Positions 2,445-38,703 of a stretch of 39,824 bases of DNA are shown here, piece by piece; position 1 is the stretch's first letter; every line of letters begins with the position of its first letter. The stretch is from positions 1-39,824 of IMG/VR virus record IMGVR_UViG_3300032820_000030. One strand, 5' to 3'. The position numbers were made by a program, and so were the translations under genes. The notes below the pieces were generated by a model, which saw only the letters and a list, made by a program, of their open reading frames with translations, was not told the origin of the DNA and made no database searches. The stretch is from a virus.

Positions 2445-2752
2445 GCGTCCTCCGTCCTCCTTTTATTGTAGAACCGGGGCGCACCCTCGCAGATGTACTC
2501 GGTGGCAGGCTCGTGGTTTCCCTCGATGGCCTTGGCTACCTTGTTCGGGGTCCACCGTTCCTCGGGGTAATTCACGGTGTCTCCGTAGACCCCGCCGCCC
2601 TTGTGGAACTGAACGATATAGTCAGGGAACAGTCCGCCATCGGGGGTGCGAAGCGTAATCACATAGTCGGGAAACCACTCCGGTTTCATCCAGCCCCGGC
2701 TCCCTTTGATGGAGTGCCACCTGTTCGCCGTGATTTTAGTTATTAGCCTCAT
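2441..2752 (-). CDS. small aromatic-rich hypothetical protein
   Basis: 103 residues starting MRLITKITANRWHSIKGSRG. Rich in Trp, Tyr and Pro, with alternating hydrophobic stretches (DYVITLRT, DYIVQFHKGGG) suggesting a small beta-sheet domain. The start at 2752 overlaps the kinase stop as ATGA and uses AAAAAGGAGGACGC. Ends RRTEDA, again because the following ribosome binding site is coded in its tail. Function unknown. Confidence 0.82.
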   Translation of the reverse strand: MRLITKITANRWHSIKGSRGWMKPEWFPDYVITLRTPDGGLFPDYIVQFHKGGGVYGDTVNYPEERWTPNKVAKAIEGNHEPATEYICEGAPRFYNKRRTEDA

Positions 2753-3228
2753 GCGTCCTCCTTTTTACGGTTATCAATCACCTCCACCTCGTCAGCGAAG
2801 TTTCGCATGAGGTCCAGAGAAGTATCCGACCGTTCAGCCATGTCTCGGATGATTTCCTCTGGCACCCGTGTCGCCTCGCCTCGCCGGGCGTTGCGTTCGA
2901 CTGCAACCTCCGGGTCAACGTGCAGGTAAATGAGCTTCACCCGGTAGCCCCAACGCCGGGACTTGCGGAACAGATCCGCCATCGCCTCGGTCTGTATCGA
3001 GCTACCGTCAAAGACCCACCTGTCATCTTCCTGAAACGAGTTCCACGGTGCCTCGAACTTATCAAGCAACTCCAGATAAGAGCCGTTGATGTTGATCTCC
3101 ACCTCGTAGTCAGCCACCCCCCGGAGATGGTGGGAGATAACCTTGTGGGTTTTGTCCAACCCCCGTTCCTGTACAAGGGTGGTCTTGCCCGCACCGGGTA
3201 CGCCACCCATAAAAACAATTTCACGCAT
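2749..3228 (-). CDS. P-loop kinase (AAA_33 / zeta-toxin-like small kinase)
   Basis: 159 residues. The N-terminal MREIVFMGGVPGAGKTTL carries a clear Walker A (GGVPGAGKT, residues 8-16) after a beta strand. A mid-protein strand with Asp (WVFDGSSI) and a later LIYLHVDPEVAVERNARRGE segment fit the lid/adenine region of small phage kinases related to polynucleotide, zeta-toxin or nucleoside kinases. The substrate cannot be told from sequence: RNA or DNA ends, a nucleotide, or a modified base are all possible. First gene after the 3250-3277 promoter, with AAGGAGGATGTTGA before its ATG. Confidence 0.85.
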   Translation of the reverse strand: MREIVFMGGVPGAGKTTLVQERGLDKTHKVISHHLRGVADYEVEININGSYLELLDKFEAPWNSFQEDDRWVFDGSSIQTEAMADLFRKSRRWGYRVKLIYLHVDPEVAVERNARRGEATRVPEEIIRDMAERSDTSLDLMRNFADEVEVIDNRKKEDA

Positions 3229-9967: not shown

Positions 9968-10732
9968 CTAAACGCCTCCAATTGGAACTTTGAGTATTGG
10001 GTCCGTGTCCTGTATTTTCTCTGCTCTACGGCCCTTCTGACGGCTCTCACCGCTATCCCTGCGGACGATCCTGCGGCCCCACTTCTGCTGGAGGCGGCGA
10101 AACTGCTCTTTTTCCCTGTTCAGCGTTCTCATGCGGGAACACCCGCCCCGGAGAGATGCCGCCCGGAGCAGGTAGAAAGCGTTGAACCGGAGAATCCTAC
10201 GGTAACGGTTAAGAACCTGTAGGCTCATGTCGTAATCCAGTTTTAGCGGTAGTTCCTCGTCGTACCTGCACTCGTTGTTGAGATGCCCGTGGAACGGAGA
10301 TCCGACATACTTCGTCAGATTGACCGGGGTGTACTCCATGTAAGCACCCTTGTCACGAAGCGGGGAAACGCCCCAGAGCTTTGCGCCCATTTGCTCGGCC
10401 ATCGAGAATCCATGCTCGATGAACTCCATCGCCTCGGACGGTCTGAGCCTGCACTCCCGCTGCCTCTCCCACCGGGAAAGCCATCGGATGTCGTCGTCAA
10501 GGATCAGGACGGATTCGCCGCAGTTGTCGAGAATCCAGTTCCTCACCCTCGCCGGGTTGCCCTGTACTTCGTCCGGGCATTCCATGACGTTCTTCCCGGT
10601 CGCCTTGTACGCCTCGGCCTCGCACTCAGCCACGACATAAACCGCCTCGCTGAGGTAGCGTTGGGTGGTTGCGGTCTTGGGGCGACCCGTGGATGGGCAG
10701 AAAATAGCTGGCTGCTTACTGGATTTCGTCAA
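9968..10732 (-). CDS. predicted TET-associated-type glycosyltransferase (TAGT-like)
   Basis: 254 residues. The TTG at 10732, overlapping the ParB-like gene by 17 bases and preceded by GGGAGCGAG, was chosen because the frame upstream of it is only the shadow of that gene. The product opens with a strand and FCPSTGRPKT (residues 11-20). It has RNWIL followed by VLILDDDIRWL (DxD-type metal motif near 79-82) and later LPLKLDYDMSLQ (161-172), then a basic tail. This arrangement matches the TAGT family, predicted to glycosylate modified bases in phage DNA. The identification is from pattern memory. No TET/JBP oxygenase is in the window. Confidence 0.72.
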   Translation of the reverse strand: MTKSSKQPAIFCPSTGRPKTATTQRYLSEAVYVVAECEAEAYKATGKNVMECPDEVQGNPARVRNWILDNCGESVLILDDDIRWLSRWERQRECRLRPSEAMEFIEHGFSMAEQMGAKLWGVSPLRDKGAYMEYTPVNLTKYVGSPFHGHLNNECRYDEELPLKLDYDMSLQVLNRYRRILRFNAFYLLRAASLRGGCSRMRTLNREKEQFRRLQQKWGRRIVRRDSGESRQKGRRAEKIQDTDPILKVPIGGV

Positions 10733-11333
10733 GATACTCGCTCCCGTCGATGACTCGCCCGGTGCCACGATTCCACGCCTCGCCGTTGGCTCTCGTGGCG
10801 TACTTCGACTGCAAATTGAAGTGACTCTTCGCCGCCTTCCAGTCGGTTTCGTTGTCAAAGATAAGCATTATGTAGTTGTGATGCTCCCCAAGTTCTTCGG
10901 AGAAAACCGTCTCTCCTTCTTCGGGGATCTCACTGTCCTTCACCGCCTCGTCTAGCTTGTCGATCTCCCGGGCGGCAAAACCAGTGGCGATCTGGAGTTC
11001 TTCATCCAGACCCAACAATGTCTCGGCAAGGATTTCCTCGTCCCAGTCAGCTAGTTCAGCCGTCCGGTTGTCCGCAATCGCAAAAGCCCGGGCTTCCTCG
11101 TCAGAAAGCTCGGTCCTCACAACGTCCAGTTCGTTCCATCCAAGCGACCGGGCAGCGGCCATCGTGCCGTTACCCGCCACCACCACGTTGTTGATGTCTA
11201 TGATGATGGGCTTCTGCTGACCGAACTTGTCGAGAGACGCTTTGATGGCACTCAGGTTCTTCCTGCTATGCGTCCGGGCGTTCTTTGCGTCCTCAACGAG
11301 TGAGTCAATGGAGACTCGCTCGATTTCAGCCAT
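10716..11333 (-). CDS. ParB-like nuclease-domain protein
   Basis: 205 residues. The N-terminal half is a ParB/Srx fold: NARTHS (18-23), strand PIIID (42-46), VVAGNGTMAAARSLG (51-65), and ADNRTAELADWD (87-98). The last motif is typical of phage and methyltransferase-linked ParB domains, not chromosome-partition ParB. The C-terminal 60 residues (YIMLIFDNETDWKAAKSHF) form a separate small domain. The start at 11333 overlaps the zinc-finger gene by 8 bases. Its neighbour, a TAGT-like glycosyltransferase, suggests a role in DNA modification: nuclease, ATP-binding or DNA-recognition subunit. Confidence 0.9.
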   Translation of the reverse strand: MAEIERVSIDSLVEDAKNARTHSRKNLSAIKASLDKFGQQKPIIIDINNVVVAGNGTMAAARSLGWNELDVVRTELSDEEARAFAIADNRTAELADWDEEILAETLLGLDEELQIATGFAAREIDKLDEAVKDSEIPEEGETVFSEELGEHHNYIMLIFDNETDWKAAKSHFNLQSKYATRANGEAWNRGTGRVIDGSEYLDEIQ

Positions 11334-18170: not shown

Positions 18171-19097
18171 TTACTTGGCCCGTTCAACGTGGATGTCAAT
18201 CTGCTCGTCGGTGGTCAGCTTGAGGCGCAGCCACACGGCCCCCACCGGGGATGGCGGGAAGCCTCGCTCGATGGACCAATTCTTCTTGCTCCACCCGTCC
18301 TTGATCGAGTCCTTATAGCTCGGGAGGGCGAGATGTAACTGCTCGTCTTGGAACGCCCTGCCAGCCGAAGTAATGCGGAGGCGTTGGATGGGAAATTGCC
18401 ACTCCTGATGGATATGCCCGCTGCAAATGATACGAGCATCAGGGAGTATTGCGGCCCGCCTGCCAGAATTCAAAACACCCTTCGTAACTGGTGCTGCCCC
18501 ACCGTACCCGTGAGTGCGGTACATCTTGATGGTCTGCGTGTTCCGCACTCGGTACTTCTTCGATTTACTTTTAACCCTTCGCCTAAGCGTAAAGAAAACC
18601 CACCCGGTATAACCGCCCTCATACATCTTCGCCCCGGTGCGATACCGGAGTTGTTCGCACAGGCGAGTCGTAACGTCTGTCTCATGGTGTCGGAGGATCG
18701 AGCTTTCGTGATTTCCTTGGGACCAGACCGCTATGTTCTGGGCATAGGGTTCGAGAAAATCGGCGTAGTCATTGACGACCGCATCAAGGTAGTTGTCGGC
18801 CATCGCCAAGTGAGGGCGAAGCTCCGCTTTCGAGCTACGCTTGTCCCATTTCCCGCCCATCAGGTCCATCGCATCACCGTTGTCGATTACACAGGCTCCA
18901 GCACTTTTCGCTTCGTCAAGATGCTTTTTTTCTAGGGCATTCCCACACGCTTCAAAGCAGGGTGAATCGTGGTGGGCATCACTGCGAAGCAAAATCCAGC
19001 ATTCGTCGCCACGCCTATCGAGATCAAAAACCACACGGTGTGCGTTTTTTGACATTTTCTCGACTGTCCAAGAGGCGGACTTCCGCCCCCGGCTCAC
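18171..19097 (-). CDS. calcineurin-like metallophosphoesterase
   Basis: 308 residues counted from GTG at 19097, which overlaps the upstream stop; the ATG at 19055 (MSKNAHRVVFDLDRRG) is an alternative. All main motifs are present: DAH (D40, H42), GDAMD (74-78), GNHE (128-131), a basic/aromatic THG (195-197) and GHIH (227-230). This two-metal fold hydrolyses phosphoester bonds. Phage members act on DNA, RNA ends or nucleotides. The substrate is not clear here. It follows the secreted dockerin-like gene, but has no signal peptide, so it acts in the cytosol. Its stop codon lies within an operator core. Confidence 0.92.
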   Translation of the reverse strand: MSRGRKSASWTVEKMSKNAHRVVFDLDRRGDECWILLRSDAHHDSPCFEACGNALEKKHLDEAKSAGACVIDNGDAMDLMGGKWDKRSSKAELRPHLAMADNYLDAVVNDYADFLEPYAQNIAVWSQGNHESSILRHHETDVTTRLCEQLRYRTGAKMYEGGYTGWVFFTLRRRVKSKSKKYRVRNTQTIKMYRTHGYGGAAPVTKGVLNSGRRAAILPDARIICSGHIHQEWQFPIQRLRITSAGRAFQDEQLHLALPSYKDSIKDGWSKKNWSIERGFPPSPVGAVWLRLKLTTDEQIDIHVERAK

Positions 19098-19435
19098 TGG
19101 GCGTAACCGTTATATTCTGAGGCTGGCGGGAACAGTGGCCCGCAGGGGATCGGGCAATCGAACAGGTACTCACCGTTGAAGATGTACTTGAGCAGAACCA
19201 CCGCATCGGTGATTGCCACAGATCCGTCCCGGTCAGCGTCAGCAACGGATGGACAAGGCAGCGGGCGACCATCTCGGTAGAGGTGGTAGATGATGAAAAT
19301 CGGATCGTCCATACATATCTGGCCGTCGAGATTCACATCGCCGTTTTGATATTCGGGGGAGGGGGATGCCGAACTGTCATGGCTCGGCAGGAGAAAGAAG
19401 AATGATAGTGCGACGAACGCAAGAAGGGTTTTCAT
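19094..19435 (-). CDS. secreted protein with two dockerin-type calcium repeats
   Basis: 113 residues. A classic signal peptide (MKTLLAFVALSFFFLLPSHD, cleavage near SSA-SP) is followed by GDVNLDGQICMDDPI (D33, N35, D37, D44) and DADRDGSVAITDAVV (D66, D68, D70, D77). These are two 12-residue EF-hand-like loops spaced as in dockerins. Two-repeat proteins of this form with a Pro/Cys-Gly-Pro tail (CPIPCGP) are typical of Planctomycetota. Probably exported by the host Sec pathway to the cell surface. Function in a phage is unknown: calcium-dependent adhesion or superinfection control is a guess. The ATG at 19435 follows AAGGACCGACC. Confidence 0.88.
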   Translation of the reverse strand: MKTLLAFVALSFFFLLPSHDSSASPSPEYQNGDVNLDGQICMDDPIFIIYHLYRDGRPLPCPSVADADRDGSVAITDAVVLLKYIFNGEYLFDCPIPCGPLFPPASEYNGYAQ

Positions 19436-19506
19436 GGTCGGTCCTTATCTTTGCGTCCTCCGCTTCCGCCTCACCTCGCATCTTACCCGACTGGGGCGCA
19501 CCCGCT

Positions 19507-19535
19507 ATTATTATTTATTTGACATTACCGCTAAA
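19507..19535 (-). promoter_or_regulatory. possible divergent minus-strand promoter
   Basis: Minus strand TTTAGC (19535-19530), 17-bp spacer, AATAAT (19512-19507). The -35 is weak, but the box overlaps the same operator as the plus-strand promoter, and the dockerin gene needs a promoter here. Tentative. Confidence 0.3.
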
Positions 19536-19547
19536 CCGATGTATACT
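19519..19547 (+). promoter_or_regulatory. plus-strand early promoter with operator
   Basis: TTGACA (19519-19524), 17-bp spacer beginning TTACCGCTAAAC, TATACT (19542-19547). Only plus-strand promoter of the set. Its leader keeps TTGAGTG and TTTTGAAGAAAGGAG but lacks the initial ATG. Confidence 0.9.
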
Positions 19548-19591
19548 ATTGGCGTTGAGTGACAGAAGGACTTTTGAAGAAAGGAGAAGTT

Positions 19592-19816
19592 ATGACCCTC
19601 AAATTCAAGAAGGTTAGAACTGAGCGTGATGTCCGCAACGACCCCCGGGTGGAAGAGATTGACTTCGGGGGATGGACGGAAGAATGGGGCAAGGACATCT
19701 GGGTGTACCTCGTGGAGGGCTTCAATAATGAGGGAGCCACTGCGGTTCACGAAGCGACTTGGGGGGATGTGTGCTACAAGATGAATAACTTTGTCGTGGA
19801 AGGAGATCGGTACTGA
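19592..19816 (+). CDS. 74-residue acidic hypothetical protein
   Basis: Starts MTLKFKKVRTERDVRNDPRV, with GAAAGGAGAAGTT before the ATG at 19592. Basic N-terminus, then WTEEWGKDIWVYLVEGFNNE and an aromatic C-terminus (VCYKMNNFVVEGDRY). It resembles nothing specific but is the first gene of the only rightward operon, facing the late terminator. It could have a regulatory role because of its position. Function unknown. Confidence 0.82.
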   Translation: MTLKFKKVRTERDVRNDPRVEEIDFGGWTEEWGKDIWVYLVEGFNNEGATAVHEATWGDVCYKMNNFVVEGDRY

Positions 19817-20004
19817 TGAACAAGAAGGAAATCAAGGCGGCGTTTCGGGAACACAAGATCCAGCTTGCCGCTGACGTTGTGAACCTGATTGAGGACAACC
19901 TCAAGAGGTCCGTCAGCAAGATGGCCCAACGCTGCAAGGACGGGAACGTCAAGCGGCTGACCCCGGACCTGCTCTGGGTCGCCCTCGGTAATTGGAGCAA
20001 CTGA
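19816..20004 (+). CDS. 62-residue possible single histone-fold protein
   Basis: Begins MNKKEIKAAFREHKIQLAAD. The start overlaps the upstream stop as TGATG and follows GAAGGAGATCGGTACT. The order is a short first helix, a loop, a long amphipathic helix (residues 19-47) and a loop rich in Lys/Arg (GNVKRLTP) into a last helix (DLLWVALG). This matches the alpha1-L1-alpha2-L2-alpha3 order and length of archaeal-type single histone folds, where R-K/T-P-x-D-hydrophobic marks loop 2. It is two residues shorter than an archaeal histone in my hand alignment. Could equally be a generic three-helix DNA-binding protein. Confidence 0.55.
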   Translation: MNKKEIKAAFREHKIQLAADVVNLIEDNLKRSVSKMAQRCKDGNVKRLTPDLLWVALGNWSN

Positions 20005-20006
20005 AA

Positions 20007-20333
20007 ATGGACACCGAAAGATGGGCGAACACGCATCGGAAGTGTAACGGCTTCGCCAGCCACTACGGGCCTTGCGGAGATCCGTACTGCTCGGACTGTT
20101 TTCCCGGCGGGCGGGTCTGTAACCAGTGCAGTCAATTAGACGGCGAGTGCGAGTGCGATAATTGCGAACATTGCGGCGAAGCCTTCGATCTTGACAAATG
20201 GGAGGTATGCCCGGACTGCTACTGCGAAGAGTGCGGCGAAGTCAAGGACAAGGACTGCAAGTGCGGAACCTGCCCATGCCCGGAATGTGACGCAGAATTT
20301 GAGGCAAAAAAAGAACGCCCGGTGGACGGGTGA
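20007..20333 (+). CDS. Cys-rich multi-zinc-ribbon protein
   Basis: 108 residues counted from ATG at 20007 (MDTERWANTHRKCNGFASHY), preceded by TTGGAGCAACTGAAA. It has more than 20 Cys, mostly in C-x2-C or C-x-C pairs (CGDPYCSDC, VCNQCSQLD, CDNCEHCGEAF, VCPDCYCEECGE, CKCGTCPCPECD). It should bind several zinc ions and may act as an adaptor or nucleic-acid-binding protein. The last codons overlap a terminator hairpin for the opposite strand. Role unknown. Confidence 0.8.
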   Translation: MDTERWANTHRKCNGFASHYGPCGDPYCSDCFPGGRVCNQCSQLDGECECDNCEHCGEAFDLDKWEVCPDCYCEECGEVKDKDCKCGTCPCPECDAEFEAKKERPVDG

Positions 20334-20795: not shown

Positions 20796-20994
20796 CTAAT
20801 TTCTCCAATAGCTCACAACAGCGTTTTTGATGAATGCGGATCTCGCCCAGTTGAAGAAGCATTTTAGTCTCTGCTTCACTCATTTTACCATTACCGTTTC
20901 GAGTTTTCACGAAGCCAAGAACCTCACGAATTATAACGGTTGCAAACACCGCAAAAACTCCGATGGTTGTGGCTGACATTGGCATATCGGTCAT
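20782..20994 (-). CDS. small membrane protein with coiled-coil tail
   Basis: 70 residues from ATG at 20994, overlapping the upstream stop as ATGA and preceded by TTTGGAGC. An N-terminal membrane helix (SATTIGVFAVFATVIIREVL) is followed by a charged helix (EAETKMLLQLGEIRIHQKRCCELLEKL). This type-II topology resembles i-spanins or XhlA-like lysis proteins. With the following lipoprotein it could form a spanin pair. Unproven. Confidence 0.55.
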   Translation of the reverse strand: MTDMPMSATTIGVFAVFATVIIREVLGFVKTRNGNGKMSEAETKMLLQLGEIRIHQKRCCELLEKLVDKR

Positions 20995-22337
20995 GCTCCA
21001 AAGGCCCAATAGAAATATCGTCTGTCCAATGTGTTAAGCGTGTCTCCAGAACCACCAATCCCATCAGGCGACCTTGAAACCCTGAACCCAGTCGGGGTGG
21101 GAAGCGGCCTGATTTCGGGTGATGCGGGTGGGTTGAGGTTGTCTATATATAGCCGGGTTCCCCGGGCAAAGTCCCACGCACTAATAACAGTTACCACGCC
21201 CGGTGAGGTTCCGGGGGTGAAGGTGCCACGACTGTTGTACATCCCCCAAAGAACTGTGTCGTTGTCGGCGACGACCGCCGACACTAGTATAGGTGAGCTA
21301 CCTACGCCGCCAATGCCTCGACCAAGCGGACCCTTGTATATTTCATAATCGTTATCTGTACCCTCATAATCTGACACATAGCCAGCGGGTGTATAATAGA
21401 CAAAGCCTGTACCTAACGCTTCAAGCAGGCTACCGGGAACGGTTCCAGCAGTGTTATTCGCTAGGAAAACATTCCCCCCCACCATCACCGTATCGCCCAC
21501 CCTTGCCCCAGTTACCGTAACGGAATCAGTTGCCCATGAGTCGGCGGCACACTCCCCAAGATCGGCTCCGTCGATTTCGGCGGTGTAGTTCGTCCCGTAA
21601 CCAAGCAGCCCATCCTCGACCATAGCCCACCCGCACGAATACATTGAGCCAACTAAGTTTGTTCCAGAACTCGCAACAGCCCGGGGGCCAGCCGGGAGAA
21701 CCCCGGAACATGCCACTACTGAGGAACCACCCGCCTGAGCTTCGCCAGATATGTAAATAAACGAAGGAGTGAAAGGCAACGCCACATCTAAAATCTCCAC
21801 GGTAGAGACTCCCGGCCCGGTCCCAACATAGGTTCCCGAAAAAACGCCCCCCCCAAGATTAATCTTACTGTTGCGAACATCGTCATCGTTCTGCATCTCC
21901 CCAACCCCATTTGTAGATGCAACGCCAAGCATCACGCTGAGGGAGCCGGGAGTCGCAGGCGGGGCTTGGTGGCTAACATTCGAGTTCTCGAACTGGAGGC
22001 TTACCACATCAGCCCCAGATAAAACGGCGGTCAGGAAGAAGTAAACCTGATTAACCGCATCAGTAGCAGGAGCCGGGTCAAGGGAATAGGTGATTGAATC
22101 ATCCGTCTCGACATATCGCCCCCCAATGAACGCCTTGCCAGCCGTGAACTGAACCTGACTCTCATCGATGCGGGAAATATCGAACCCGCTGATTACGAAG
22201 TTGCGGGGGGGGAGCGAGAGCGTGAGAGCCGACACATTCGCCTCGGTGACAATATTGCCGCTGCCAGTGCTGCCCAAGTTAATATCATTGGCCGAAGGAA
22301 AGACCTTCACGTTCGCTGCTGGTATTGTTGTCGCCAT
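20991..22337 (-). CDS. tail fibre or tail-surface protein
   Basis: 448 residues beginning MATTIPAANVKVFPSANDIN. The N-terminal 150 residues (FVISGFDISRIDESQVQFTAGKAFIGGRYV without break in strands) resemble the start of many phage tail fibre or appendage proteins. The rest is Gly/Thr/Val-rich and beta-like, with no enzymatic motif. The ATG at 22337 has no clear ribosome binding site. It lies last before the lysis-type genes and probably belongs to the receptor-binding apparatus. Confidence 0.75.
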   Translation of the reverse strand: MATTIPAANVKVFPSANDINLGSTGSGNIVTEANVSALTLSLPPRNFVISGFDISRIDESQVQFTAGKAFIGGRYVETDDSITYSLDPAPATDAVNQVYFFLTAVLSGADVVSLQFENSNVSHQAPPATPGSLSVMLGVASTNGVGEMQNDDDVRNSKINLGGGVFSGTYVGTGPGVSTVEILDVALPFTPSFIYISGEAQAGGSSVVACSGVLPAGPRAVASSGTNLVGSMYSCGWAMVEDGLLGYGTNYTAEIDGADLGECAADSWATDSVTVTGARVGDTVMVGGNVFLANNTAGTVPGSLLEALGTGFVYYTPAGYVSDYEGTDNDYEIYKGPLGRGIGGVGSSPILVSAVVADNDTVLWGMYNSRGTFTPGTSPGVVTVISAWDFARGTRLYIDNLNPPASPEIRPLPTPTGFRVSRSPDGIGGSGDTLNTLDRRYFYWAFGA

Positions 22338-22339
22338 AG

Positions 22340-22774
22340 TTAGGACACCGTTATTTCGTGGGCTATTGTGAGTTCGACCGCATCACTTTTTGTTATTGCC
22401 GGACTTATCAGGGTGCGGGCGAGTAGAAGCGTTCCCCGGAACAAGCCTTCCTCGGCAAGCACATTCCCATTCGCATCTGCCGACCCCAGAAATATCTTAT
22501 GTGTCATCTTTTGTGCGGTCGCAATCCTGCGGTCGATGACCCCCTCGGTTCCTGTTCCCCACACCTGAGTATCGAGAGCCGTGTTAGAAACGGCAGGAGA
22601 CGCATCCCCTGTTCCAAGGGCGATCTTCGTAGCACGAGTCTCCGTCCCGCCCATGAGATCCCGAACCCAGTTGAGGCCGCTAGTCGTCATCAGGTTATGC
22701 ATCGCCCGGGTGTCCACGACCTCCTTGGTCTTGGCATCCCGAATCTCGATAAAAACATTATTTGAAACTTTCAT
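22340..22774 (-). CDS. tail-associated structural protein
   Basis: 144 residues beginning MKVSNNVFIEIRDAKTKEVV. The form 'RDAKTKEVVDTR ... N(L/I)MTTSGLNWVRDLM ... IALGTGDASP' is typical of small phage tail or baseplate-associated proteins seen between hub and fibre genes. It lies between the large tail-tip protein and the fibre gene. No ribosome binding site is obvious. Probably part of the tail tip; role unknown. Confidence 0.75.
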   Translation of the reverse strand: MKVSNNVFIEIRDAKTKEVVDTRAMHNLMTTSGLNWVRDLMGGTETRATKIALGTGDASPAVSNTALDTQVWGTGTEGVIDRRIATAQKMTHKIFLGSADANGNVLAEEGLFRGTLLLARTLISPAITKSDAVELTIAHEITVS

Positions 22775-22786
22775 GGGTCAGTCAGG

Positions 22787-25426
22787 TCAAAGCTCTATGA
22801 AGGTAGGCGGCGGCGGAGAACCGGACGGCGGTATCAAACTCCCCACATGATACACGTTGGGGCGGTCTTTTGCATGTTGAGCTATTGTTTCACTTGACAG
22901 CGCACTCGGGAAGATAGCGAACTCATCAAGCCTCCCGACGAGCCACTCGTCCGCCACAATAGCTAGAGTGGTGGCCCAAGACTGCCCGACAATCACCGCA
23001 TCGGTGGTTTCCAGATTACTCATGGATATACGGTTAATGCCCCCCGCCAAAGTGGTCCCATTTATCTTCAGGCCCATGCTCTGAGCGTTGATGAACAACT
23101 CGAATGTCTGGTTTGTCTGGTCCCGCACAACAGCAATATGATTCCATGTGCCGGGGAAAAGGCTCGACCGCAGAGATAGTCCACTCCACTCAACACGGCG
23201 GGTTTGCGGGGTGCCGCCTGTGTCGAAATATAAGACCCTTATTTTGTCAGGGTTCCCAGTTTCCCCCACTCCATTATTTCTCTCAATTTGAATCTTGAAG
23301 CTATCTTTTTGTTCTTTGGTTCCCGCCTGAAAAATGCACTGCTTCTGTTCTCTTACCGCTGAAACCTGTAACCAGAAGCCAATAGTTACGTCTGTTTGGT
23401 TATCCAGAGATGTTGGCGGAATAATGATCCTTGAGTTAAACCCCAAGTTGACAATCCCTTCGACTACTCCGCCAAGGAAGAAAAAAGATCCTGCCCTCTG
23501 AATCGTGTCGGGCAGGTTTGGCGATGCAAGTTGCCGCCCTACAGCCCCTATGTTGCGTTGAGTCACCATGAAGGCTGCCGACCCGCCGTTGGCATTCCCA
23601 GACGAGTCCGCCACGGGAAAACTCATCCCGCCCGGCTCGTTTGGGTCGGAGGTTTCGTCACAACGATAATAGACAAGCGGGAATGATTGCCTGATGACAT
23701 CGGAATACGTCAGCACCGCCGGGTAACTTGACCCGACCTGCGACCCCGCACTCACGAGACATACGGTGTATGCATCGGTTGTATACGCACCAAGCGTGTT
23801 GCTGGTGTCGGGCGTGGGGAGATTGTCGGTCAGCGTTACCCCATCGTCACCGTCAGCAAAGATCATCACCGTCTCCCCCTCGGTAATGATGAACTTCCTA
23901 CCCCTGTTTATGAGCCGCTTGAAGAATGACTGCCAGCCGCCAAGCGACTCGCCATCAAGTGCCTTATAGCTGTAGCGCAGGGTTTCATCGCCCCGGTCGC
24001 TTGCGGAAAAACTCTCGATGAGGAAGTAGCCGACAAGCCCTAGCTTTGGCAGGACAAAAGTTTGGAATTGTCCCGCCCGAATGCCTCCTTCGTCCGTCAC
24101 AACAGTGGCAGTCTTGGGAATGTGGCCCAACTGAGTGAGTAGCCCCTCCACCTTGGTCCTCGCAAAGAGGCTGTCCTCGATCCTCTCATCTTCCTCGACG
24201 GCTTCATAGATACCAGTGCCGCCCTCTATGGCTTGACGGGCGGCGATCTCGTCGTCGTCCTGCGACCGGGCCAGAACCCTCACAAGCGGCCTATAAACAA
24301 TCCGCACCCGGTCATTATTCCAAACCACATCATCGTCAGCGAGACGGGTCATTATGTTGAAGGCCCGAAGCACAAGCTCGTCGCTGTTCTGTGTGATGGT
24401 GTTGTCACCAACATTCCAAGACCACTGTACAGGGTTTGGCAAACTGTCCAGCCCGACAGTTTGGCGGACCCACCCGGTGCCGACCCTTTGCGGTATATTC
24501 GCAATATTAAGCCCGGGCTGCTCGGCATCTTCTTCTGCCGCCTGTTCTTCACGTTCACGGAGTTCTTCTCTGGCCTCTTCTTCTTCGGGCGATAGGATCT
24601 GACTGCCACGGTTCACCCACACTTCCGGTTCGGCCCCGACAGGGAGGGCGACCGTAAATGTCCGGGTGTCGTTATCGCCTGCGAACTCTTCCGTCCTCCT
24701 GTTTGGCGAAACCTCAAGACCACCACGCAAATACTGACGGTTCCTGTACTGACTGCGGTTTTGCTTAACGGTTATGCTGCGATATGTCGGGGATAGGGCG
24801 GTGAGGCTGAACGGTGCCTCTACATCGATGCGATCTCGAAAATGAAGCTGCTTGTTGTAGTCTATGTAGAAAACGTAACCCACCGCCTCGGCCAGAGAAG
24901 AAAGGCAGGAATTAACCGTTTCGTACTGGAACACAATGCGGTCAGTGTAGCCGCCGTTCTGGATCTGCCCCGGCACCACGCCATCGTCTGCAAGGAACTC
25001 ATCGATAATGAGGCGCACGATCTGTCCGAAGGTCTGCCCATCGGCGGCAAACGACTTCGCCACGAGCTTGCGGTCAAGCAACTGATTCCAGTCCACGCAC
25101 CGGATGTTCATAAACATCGCATCGCTGGTGTAGTCCATGCTCGGGAAGTTCGTATCGGTCGATTCAATGGTTCCTGAAAAGACATTAACCTCATCAAACG
25201 TAACGATTACTTCCGACCCGACCGGGCAAGACAACGCCCCGGTAGCGTCGAAAATCTGGAAGTTGCATGTCGAGCGTGACCCAAGCGTCTCGGTGATCCG
25301 CAGAGAACTGCTCTTGTAGTAGCTCGACCGATCAACCCCGGCAATCGAGATGACCATCCCCGGTACTGGTGTTGGCGGGACAACACCTTCATCGACATGA
25401 GGTAAAAATGGAGGTTGGTGGCCCAT
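22787..25426 (-). CDS. tail-tip/hub protein with LamG-type C-terminal domain
   Basis: 879 residues. Residues from about 25 to 230 (MVISIAGVDRSSYYKSSSLR, strand-rich CNFQIFDATG) resemble the tail hub domains of siphoviruses. A charged coiled-coil insert rich in Glu (EEEEAREELREREEQAAEED) lies near residue 280. The last 300 residues have VYYRCDETSDPNE, GFWLQVSAVREQKQCIFQAG and GTWNHIAVVRDQTNQTFELF, typical of a LamG/concanavalin A-like glycan-binding domain. It probably contacts cell-surface sugars. Weak ribosome binding site before ATG at 25426. Confidence 0.85.
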   Translation of the reverse strand: MGHQPPFLPHVDEGVVPPTPVPGMVISIAGVDRSSYYKSSSLRITETLGSRSTCNFQIFDATGALSCPVGSEVIVTFDEVNVFSGTIESTDTNFPSMDYTSDAMFMNIRCVDWNQLLDRKLVAKSFAADGQTFGQIVRLIIDEFLADDGVVPGQIQNGGYTDRIVFQYETVNSCLSSLAEAVGYVFYIDYNKQLHFRDRIDVEAPFSLTALSPTYRSITVKQNRSQYRNRQYLRGGLEVSPNRRTEEFAGDNDTRTFTVALPVGAEPEVWVNRGSQILSPEEEEAREELREREEQAAEEDAEQPGLNIANIPQRVGTGWVRQTVGLDSLPNPVQWSWNVGDNTITQNSDELVLRAFNIMTRLADDDVVWNNDRVRIVYRPLVRVLARSQDDDEIAARQAIEGGTGIYEAVEEDERIEDSLFARTKVEGLLTQLGHIPKTATVVTDEGGIRAGQFQTFVLPKLGLVGYFLIESFSASDRGDETLRYSYKALDGESLGGWQSFFKRLINRGRKFIITEGETVMIFADGDDGVTLTDNLPTPDTSNTLGAYTTDAYTVCLVSAGSQVGSSYPAVLTYSDVIRQSFPLVYYRCDETSDPNEPGGMSFPVADSSGNANGGSAAFMVTQRNIGAVGRQLASPNLPDTIQRAGSFFFLGGVVEGIVNLGFNSRIIIPPTSLDNQTDVTIGFWLQVSAVREQKQCIFQAGTKEQKDSFKIQIERNNGVGETGNPDKIRVLYFDTGGTPQTRRVEWSGLSLRSSLFPGTWNHIAVVRDQTNQTFELFINAQSMGLKINGTTLAGGINRISMSNLETTDAVIVGQSWATTLAIVADEWLVGRLDEFAIFPSALSSETIAQHAKDRPNVYHVGSLIPPSGSPPPPTFIEL

Positions 25427-36492: not shown

Positions 36493-38703
36493 TTAAGTTC
36501 CAAAGAACTGTGTGCATCGGCAGTTGATGACTTCGTATGCGGGTGCGCCAAGCGACGAATCGCCCGGCCACATTAGCTGAAACCCCTTAATGGTAAAAGG
36601 CTCATTAAATTTTTTCACCTGACCACTCAACCCACCCAGATCGGCGGGAGTGAAGTGGTCGGGACGGGTCCGATTATCCAGAATCGACAACCACGTTTTC
36701 TTCTTAGCCACTCCTGTAATCTTAGCTCCCATGTGCGATCCCGCATTAGAAGCGTTAATAACCTCCGTCCGGGCGACCGTCTCGGCCCGGTGAGCGTAGG
36801 TGCGGTCAAGCATTCCCTCAATGCGCCCGGCTAGCTGGCGGATGTCCTCACCCTCGTTGGTTCCCTCCAGCAGTTGCTCACGGATTCGACTAACCGTTAC
36901 ACGGTCGATCCCGGTTATGCGGGTCGCCGCAAACCCCTTGAGGTACTTCTTCATCTCTTGCTCGAAGGGCCGCACCACGAATATTTCTTCCTCGTCCTCG
37001 TCCTGCTTCCAGTTCTTGCTCATAACCGCCTGCTCAATCATGCGGGCATCCGGTACGGGCATTCCCTTGGGCAGGGCGGCGAAGATCCGCCGGGCGAAGT
37101 GTTCACCGACCTCCATGTACAGGTCGTCGTAATCCTTCTCCCAGTCCTTGTAGTCATCCTTCAAAACCTCGTCAATCACCTTCTCCATGCCCTCGACCGA
37201 CGACTCACCACGCACCGCATCCATGATGCTACGCTTCTCATCGAGCAGCCGCTTGGCGAACTTCTTATCCCAACGCTCTACGAACTGGTCACGGTCGCCA
37301 TCAAAAGCCTTGCCGTGAGCCACCATTTCCTCGGTCGTCGTCAGGTTGAAAGCCTTGAACTCCGGGGCGATGTCCTTGTATACGGGCTGAGGGGCGGACG
37401 ATTCACCCTCAGCCCCGCCCTGTCCCGACGAATCATCATCACCCGGTGGGGCTTCTCCGTCGAGTGGCATACCTGAACCAACGCCAACCACCCCGCCATC
37501 CGGGGTAATTATCACGCCCTTCGCCGTCACGATTGCCTCGCCAGCGGGACTGTCGAGCTTATCCATGCCCGTAGCTTCACGCTTCTCGTTGATCGTCATC
37601 CAATCGGCGTTACCAACCCTGCGCCACTGCATAGCACGATCCTCTTGCAGTGCGTCGATCTGGTCACGCTGGAAGTCGAGAGATAGACCGTCACCGAAGT
37701 CTTTTACGATCCAGTAGTTCAACTCGTCACGCAGCCATGTCAGAAGCGGGATAATGTTCTCCTGATACAGCGACTTCCTCGCCTCGGCGTAGTTACTGAA
37801 TGTGCTGGCCTCGGTGTCTCCCAACAACTGTGAAGCCACGCCCATCGTGAATGAAGTCAGTCGATCCGACACTTTCTGACCTTCGATCCACTCCATCTCG
37901 CCCGGACTCATGCCCGTCTGCACCCAGTCAAGCGACCCGGACAACACCGGGATTCTGCCTGCGTTTCCGAACCCGGAATACTTCTCAGCGAACTTGGCCT
38001 CGATCTGCTCGACCTGTTCCTTGGTCAACTGCATGACGTTCCCCGTGGCCTTCAAAAGACCCGTGGGTCGGGCGTTGTTCTTCAAAAGGTTCCGGTTCCA
38101 CTTGCGGGAAAAGTTCGATTGCTCTATCGTCAGCCCCGCAACCTCGATGGGAGACAACCCCCCGAACTCGTTTAGCGGGTCAAAAATGTGAAGGGGGAGG
38201 ATCTCTTCGGGCGAGTAGATGCGTTTTTTCTCCGGTTGGTTCGGGTCTGGTGTGTAGACCCACCCACTTTCCGGGTCGTTTTCTTTTCTCAAGCTCACAA
38301 GGTCGGGCCTGAGATTGTAAAGCCCTCTGGTTTTCCCACCCCCCTCAACCTTCAAAATATAGTTTGAGCCGCTGACCAGCAGGTAGACAACCAACTGCTC
38401 GAAGAACCTTGCGCCGCCAGCCCGGGGGTTGGGTCGCTTCATTAACTCCGCCAGCGGGTGTTCACGGATCTCCACCTTCTCGCCCTGCGAGTCGCCCTTC
38501 AATACCACCCATGGCACCGCACCCACCGCCGACGAAACCAACTGCACCGCACCGAACACAACGCCATTCTTTTTATAAGCGTTATTAACTAAGCTCTGGA
38601 ACGTGCCTTTTATCTCATCGCTCGAATCAGCCAAGTCGATCAACTGCGAAAGCGATATACTCTTGAGCTTCGGCTCAAATAGATTCTTTACCCAATCAAA
38701 CAT
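36493..38703 (-). CDS. portal protein fused to MuF-like head morphogenesis domain
   Basis: 736 residues. Residues 1-400 are an HK97-type portal (MFDWVKNLFEPKLKSISLSQ, RPNPRAGGARFFEQLVVYLL, IVKDFGDGLSLDFQRDQIDA). A Gly/Pro-rich acidic linker (PLDGEAPPGDDDSSGQGGAE) joins a C-terminal part with VARTEVINASNAGSHMGAKI, DNRTRPDHFTPADLGGLSG and NCRCTQFF, the SPP1 gp7/Mu F head-morphogenesis signature. In most phages these are separate genes. The start codon follows the terminase stop by one base (TAAAATG). Confidence 0.94.
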   Translation of the reverse strand: MFDWVKNLFEPKLKSISLSQLIDLADSSDEIKGTFQSLVNNAYKKNGVVFGAVQLVSSAVGAVPWVVLKGDSQGEKVEIREHPLAELMKRPNPRAGGARFFEQLVVYLLVSGSNYILKVEGGGKTRGLYNLRPDLVSLRKENDPESGWVYTPDPNQPEKKRIYSPEEILPLHIFDPLNEFGGLSPIEVAGLTIEQSNFSRKWNRNLLKNNARPTGLLKATGNVMQLTKEQVEQIEAKFAEKYSGFGNAGRIPVLSGSLDWVQTGMSPGEMEWIEGQKVSDRLTSFTMGVASQLLGDTEASTFSNYAEARKSLYQENIIPLLTWLRDELNYWIVKDFGDGLSLDFQRDQIDALQEDRAMQWRRVGNADWMTINEKREATGMDKLDSPAGEAIVTAKGVIITPDGGVVGVGSGMPLDGEAPPGDDDSSGQGGAEGESSAPQPVYKDIAPEFKAFNLTTTEEMVAHGKAFDGDRDQFVERWDKKFAKRLLDEKRSIMDAVRGESSVEGMEKVIDEVLKDDYKDWEKDYDDLYMEVGEHFARRIFAALPKGMPVPDARMIEQAVMSKNWKQDEDEEEIFVVRPFEQEMKKYLKGFAATRITGIDRVTVSRIREQLLEGTNEGEDIRQLAGRIEGMLDRTYAHRAETVARTEVINASNAGSHMGAKITGVAKKKTWLSILDNRTRPDHFTPADLGGLSGQVKKFNEPFTIKGFQLMWPGDSSLGAPAYEVINCRCTQFFGT

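Follow-up and report, generated by a model that had tools for sequence, protein, structure and literature searches.

A stand-alone, secreted-type dockerin encoded by at least four types of phage

We describe here a phage gene for a 113-residue protein that consists of a signal peptide and one dockerin module, with no glycoside hydrolase, other enzyme or other domain, and which on sequence grounds is a member of a phage-specialised subfamily rather than an isolated capture. The gene lies in a 39,824-base IMG/VR virus record of the linear class (hereafter the window, meaning the whole stretch analysed), which is a genuine phage since it encodes a terminase (TerL), a portal, a prohead protease, an HK97-type capsid, and tail and tape-measure genes. 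A sequence-only reading of the same DNA had suggested a possible acquired host gene; this proved too narrow, because the subfamily is common to at least four unrelated phage types.

The two canonical 12-residue calcium loops, the signal peptide and the cysteine tail claimed in that reading are all present in one minus-strand ORF (Table 1), which runs in full from ATG to stop and translates as MKTLLAFVALSFFFLLPSHDSSASPSPEYQN-GDVNLDGQICMDDPIFIIYHLYRDGRPLPCPSVADADRDGSVAITDAVVLLKYIFNGEYLFDCPIPCGPLFPPASEYNGYAQ; the plus frame over the same positions is interrupted by stops. The signal peptide was called by eye from the hydrophobic N-terminus and the family alignment, and is probably cleaved between residues 18 and 23; in most family members it ends in Ala, Ser or Gly before a Gln. 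Both loops are complete, at dockerin spacing, in 9/9 members (in L005, position 3 of loop 1 is Thr), and two strict loops at that spacing within one ORF arose in none of 200 first-order Markov simulations of the window's composition. The C-terminal tail of the window protein reads DCPIPCG (pattern DCPxxC), and its cysteines 41, 61, 94 and 98 are conserved across the family, with the exception of L010, in which the third is lost and another cysteine is gained in loop 2. The conserved cysteines suggest disulfides and an oxidising, extra-cytoplasmic location.

Table 1. Features of the dockerin locus in the window (strand as + or -; a dot marks a feature assigned to neither strand)
Feature	Position	Strand	Basis and remarks
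Calcineurin-like metallophosphoesterase, 308 aa, GTG start	18171..19097	-	phrog_7339, metal motifs, adjacency
Stand-alone secreted-type dockerin gene, 113 aa	19094..19435	-	ORF and translation, Pfam, fold, 8 homologues
Calcium loop 2, residues 66-77, DADRDGSVAITD	19205..19240	-	D1, G6, D12 invariant in 9/9 members
Calcium loop 1, residues 33-44, DVNLDGQICMDD	19304..19339	-	D1, D5, G6, C9, D12 invariant in 9/9 members
Sec-type signal peptide, residues 1-24	19364..19435	-	by-eye reading and family alignment
Divergent intergenic region	19436..19558	.	alignment with G002; starts the leftward dockerin-phosphoesterase unit and the rightward three-gene block
Dockerin leader, GTGAGGCGGAAGCGGAGGACGC	19453..19474	-	alignment with G002; single copy in window

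The claim that a phage bears a secreted-type dockerin is upheld by the Pfam match, by the predicted fold and by the structural genes on the same contig. The window protein (P0001) matches Pfam Dockerin_1 at E 2.5e-4, with 21.6 bits, slightly below the cut-off of 22.9, and the whole-frame score is above the cut-off; the homologues L006 (24.6) and L007 (24.1) score above 22.9, and L010 has no match. A profile search of the PDB matched solved dockerins at E 1.7e-9. An AlphaFold2 model of the mature domain, built on 16 aligned dockerin domains from viruses, reached a mean pLDDT of 85.9 and a pTM of 0.73; the full-length protein with an eight-row alignment modelled poorly (pLDDT 53). With the mature-domain model, the best 31 Foldseek matches were all solved dockerins, many taken from cohesin complexes. 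The top matches are of type I and include 1ohz (TM 0.86) and the complexes of cohesin with dockerin 4uyp/4uyq (E 2e-4 to 7e-4). We conclude from the Foldseek and PDB profile matches that the module is a true dockerin.

Scanning 2.9 million viral contigs identified homologues with the same cysteine pattern on eight further IMG/VR contigs, for a family of nine members including the window. The first seven share 39-52% overall identity, and the same seven contigs were recovered by the phosphoesterase search and by the dockerin-profile search; the eighth, L148, was found later, and the last scan of the viral contigs yielded no homologue beyond it. Remoter stand-alone dockerins, secreted or lipid-anchored, are carried by G009 (44998-45315), G010 (36848-37177, with a lipobox) and G011 (2649-3050). 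Among annotated phages, neither P0001 nor a remoter homologue nor a generic consensus brought up a relative; a planctomycete-style consensus served solely as bait for other viral dockerins and not as evidence of origin. Together with the few carriers among the viral contigs, this bears out the earlier remark that dockerins are rare in phages.

The structural genes divide the carriers among four or more types of phage. The window and G002 (type 1) are siphovirus-like, with an HK97 capsid, a phrog_38 terminase and a tape measure, and G001, G003, G004, G006 and G007 (type 2) are podovirus-like on account of a phrog_2 terminase, a phrog_156 portal and an internal virion protein. In G005 (type 3) the phrog_156 portal is divergent (19-21% identity), and L148 (type 4) has a T7-like terminase about 50% identical to those of marine and other autographivirus-like phages. 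Blast at 1e-6 revealed no terminase, portal or capsid gene in common between the window and the type 2 carriers. A few accessory genes are common to different carrier types, which would fit a common host pool.

Elsewhere in the window a tRNA-Met (CAT) gene occupies the contig's left end (373-447, -), and a TET-associated glycosyltransferase-like gene (PF20691, E 2.6e-10) overlaps a ParB-like gene (9968-10858 and 10716-11333, both -), a hint that the DNA of this phage may carry glycosylated modified cytosines. The tail-tip genes at 20991-25426 (-), one of whose products ends in a LamG/ConA lectin domain, likely encode receptor-binding proteins; these products share 44-69% identity with their G002 counterparts, against 90% for the capsid.

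The dockerin itself diverges fast. Between the window and G002 it is 51% identical, as compared to 85% for the phosphoesterase and 90-97% for the head proteins (capsid 90%, TerL 97%), with a dN of 0.43; its dN/dS of 0.31 is the highest among the 19 genes compared, yet below 1, in a comparison that is rough because dS is near saturation (1.4). Only tail-tip proteins have a comparable dN. Across the family, dockerin identity is 35-57% at any phosphoesterase identity (52-88%; Mantel r 0.19, p 0.19), and the calcium loops and most cysteines are fixed while the remaining sequence changes. Such divergence suits a protein that faces a variable partner, and weak constraint elsewhere in the domain could equally fit. 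Despite the low protein identity, the dockerin leader is kept in G002. Checked as candidate repeated operators, the conserved leader and divergent-region sequences proved to occur only as single copies. A sigma-70-like site (TTGACA-17-TATACT, 11/12) at 19519-19547 (+) points at the rightward three-gene block, 19559-20333, which interrupts an otherwise leftward genome; the -35 element is conserved in G002 and the -10 is not.

We tentatively favour the view that this dockerin is specialised for phage use, is exported on its own and takes up a receptor on the surface of hosts that themselves use dockerins; both the partner and the benefit are matters that we infer. The infected cell would export the protein via the Sec pathway, and the dockerin would fold with calcium outside the cytoplasm and might then bind a cohesin-like surface receptor, one whose usual task is to anchor dockerin-tagged proteins of the host itself. 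Occupation of this receptor could prevent adsorption of sister phages to the infected cell or to its debris; alternatively, it could loosen the surface layer and allow progeny to escape. A surface-interaction role would be expected to give divergence as fast as that seen here relative to the capsid and TerL. Also conceivable, if more doubtful, is a phage-specific family whose naked secreted dockerins spread between unrelated phages with common dockerin-rich hosts and competitively jam the cohesin-dockerin surface assembly of those hosts, with superinfection exclusion or release as the outcome.

Dockerins are the plugs of enzyme assemblies, and many occur outside cellulosomes without a known partner. 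In classical clostridial dockerins, Ser/Thr at loop positions 10-11 set cohesin specificity, not the fold. These positions are Met-Asp in repeat 1 and Ile-Thr in repeat 2 of the window protein, which thus lacks the Ser/Thr recognition pair; with the Ser/Thr contacts absent from repeat 1, the protein is not expected to bind a classical cohesin, and its receptor should differ from clostridial cohesins. Like type I dockerins (PF00404; 1ohz, 4uyp/4uyq, 3ul4), the phage module has two 12-residue loops, each with its F helix, in about 65 residues of the same fold. Unlike them, it has only a signal peptide in front of it and no enzyme attached, its family has four conserved cysteines, one of them inside loop 1 (position 9), and positions 10-11 of repeat 1 are mostly Met/Phe then Asp/Asn rather than Ser/Thr. 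Because the two repeats differ, a dual binding mode is not expected.

Other phages also encode dockerins, among them the BFVD "Dockerin type 1" entries of Myoviridae sp. ctCL221 and ctagO6 and of Siphoviridae sp. ctgN495. In the BFVD dockerin-like matches the module sits within longer proteins of 211-1316 aa (the frames of L130 and L132 are 260-274 aa), and none of these matches is a stand-alone dockerin; nor did the literature searched yield a report of a stand-alone phage dockerin. Phage dockerins within longer proteins are therefore already on record, and it is the stand-alone secreted form that is new with respect to annotated phages, the BFVD matches and the searched literature. Two viral contigs of 222,775 and 28,501 bases also encode small proteins that are anchored in the membrane and combine two dockerin/EF-hand loops with a lysine-rich tail (L129, 4911-5252; L131, 4908-5252).

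Alternatively, the protein might be a virion or lysis part, a calcium-dependent adaptor of the lysis and late region that holds virions, or an enzyme of phage or host, at the envelope as the cell lyses, rather than a receptor plug. We consider this unlikely, even though the gene often lies near late genes: about 1 kb from the small genes after the tail module in the window, 12 bases after TerL in L148, and close to SSB and terminase genes in G001, G004, G006 and G007. Phage lysozymes with dockerins do exist, as in L130 (3501-4325) and L132 (4392-5174), where lysozyme-like proteins (GH25-type by eye) end in a dockerin, in effect endolysin-like enzymes with a dockerin tag. However, cohesin models found no match, and hence no cohesin-like receiver, in the eight phage contigs tested, and the window gene heads a leftward non-structural run, parted from the tail operon by the rightward block.

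To much the same degree we doubt that the gene is a moron, that is, a captured host dockerin fragment carried as cargo with no strong role. Bacteria rich in dockerins commonly have modules of this kind (PMC6461901, PMC9377139), and contigs G008 and G010 bear long host-style dockerin proteins, but the loops, cysteines and signal peptide are conserved across nine divergent members, dN/dS is 0.31, and the gene recurs in four phage types with no relative in limited genome scans. On G008, three adjoining genes at 76894-81884 (loci L125 and L140) encode long secreted dockerin-ending proteins, two with a PAPFPxC tail and one with an N-terminal region that appears cohesin-like by eye and matches no Pfam model.

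The dockerin gene is closely coupled to the metallophosphoesterase gene that follows it, whose GTG start overlaps the dockerin stop by 4 bases (GTGA). The window enzyme matches phrog_7339, "DNA repair exonuclease", at E 9.6e-9; like phrog_7339 and other calcineurin-like metallophosphoesterases it keeps the metal motifs (GNHE and GHIH/GHTH in the alignment), its Pfam match is weak (Metallophos_2, E 0.19), and a sequence search found no relative among solved structures. A dockerin lies directly 5' of the enzyme in eight of the nine members (all but L148), and these are the contigs of that phosphoesterase clade (8/8). The two genes overlap by 4 bases in four of these contigs, the window included, and by 1 base in L010; elsewhere, 7, 8 and 44 bases separate them. 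Coupling is limited to this clade: more than 70 other viral contigs carry the phosphoesterase family, and a motif scan of those loci showed no dockerin; where examined, the phosphoesterase gene often sits beside a TerS-like, RusA-like, ParB-like or glycosyltransferase gene. Conversely, no phosphoesterase neighbour was found beside the dockerin of L148, whose contig ends 433 bases past the gene, or beside the remoter dockerins of G009, G010 and G011, so it is the dockerin that recurs and not the pair. Most likely the phosphoesterase would be a cytoplasmic enzyme acting on DNA, coupled to the dockerin for expression and not as a complex. Physical binding of the two proteins is unsupported, given their uncorrelated identities and the remoter dockerins that lack the enzyme. 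Least probable of the readings considered is a functional pair that cooperates, for example against one host defence or with the dockerin positioning the enzyme: the adjacency holds across unrelated phages and was recovered from either gene, but the phosphoesterase has no signal peptide, the enzyme family is largely dockerin-less and the divergences do not correlate.

Freshwater Planctomycetes are dockerin-rich, and a non-cellulosomal dockerin-cohesin "planctosome" has been proposed for them (PMC6461901); Hydrogenedentes, another phylum, are also dockerin-rich (PMC9377139). Planctosome dockerins are exported, as that of the phage is predicted to be, and lie outside cellulosomes, and a likeness in use can be supposed; unlike the bare phage module, they form part of long multi-domain host adaptors and peptidases. 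The sequence-only reading called the protein planctomycete-type and saw in this a hint at the host; a planctomycete origin is plausible. When 84,980 species genomes of bacteria and archaea were scanned twice by peptide pattern, no relative came up, a weak null for remote relatives because the patterns were narrow; within the reach of those patterns the variant that has its cysteine at position 9 of the loop may be specific to phages. Plasmids, searched as a proxy for cellular homologues, gave two weak matches only (E 0.7-0.9), and none when searched with a host-style dockerin domain. A Firmicutes alternative is not favoured, the lysozyme-dockerins of L130 and L132 being built differently and no cohesin model matching the eight contigs tested.

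That a phage would export a bare plug suggests that there is a receptor worth occupying during infection, and the stand-alone dockerin represents a small natural probe with which this receptor might be pulled out of its hosts. It may also mark the phages of poorly known dockerin-rich bacteria.
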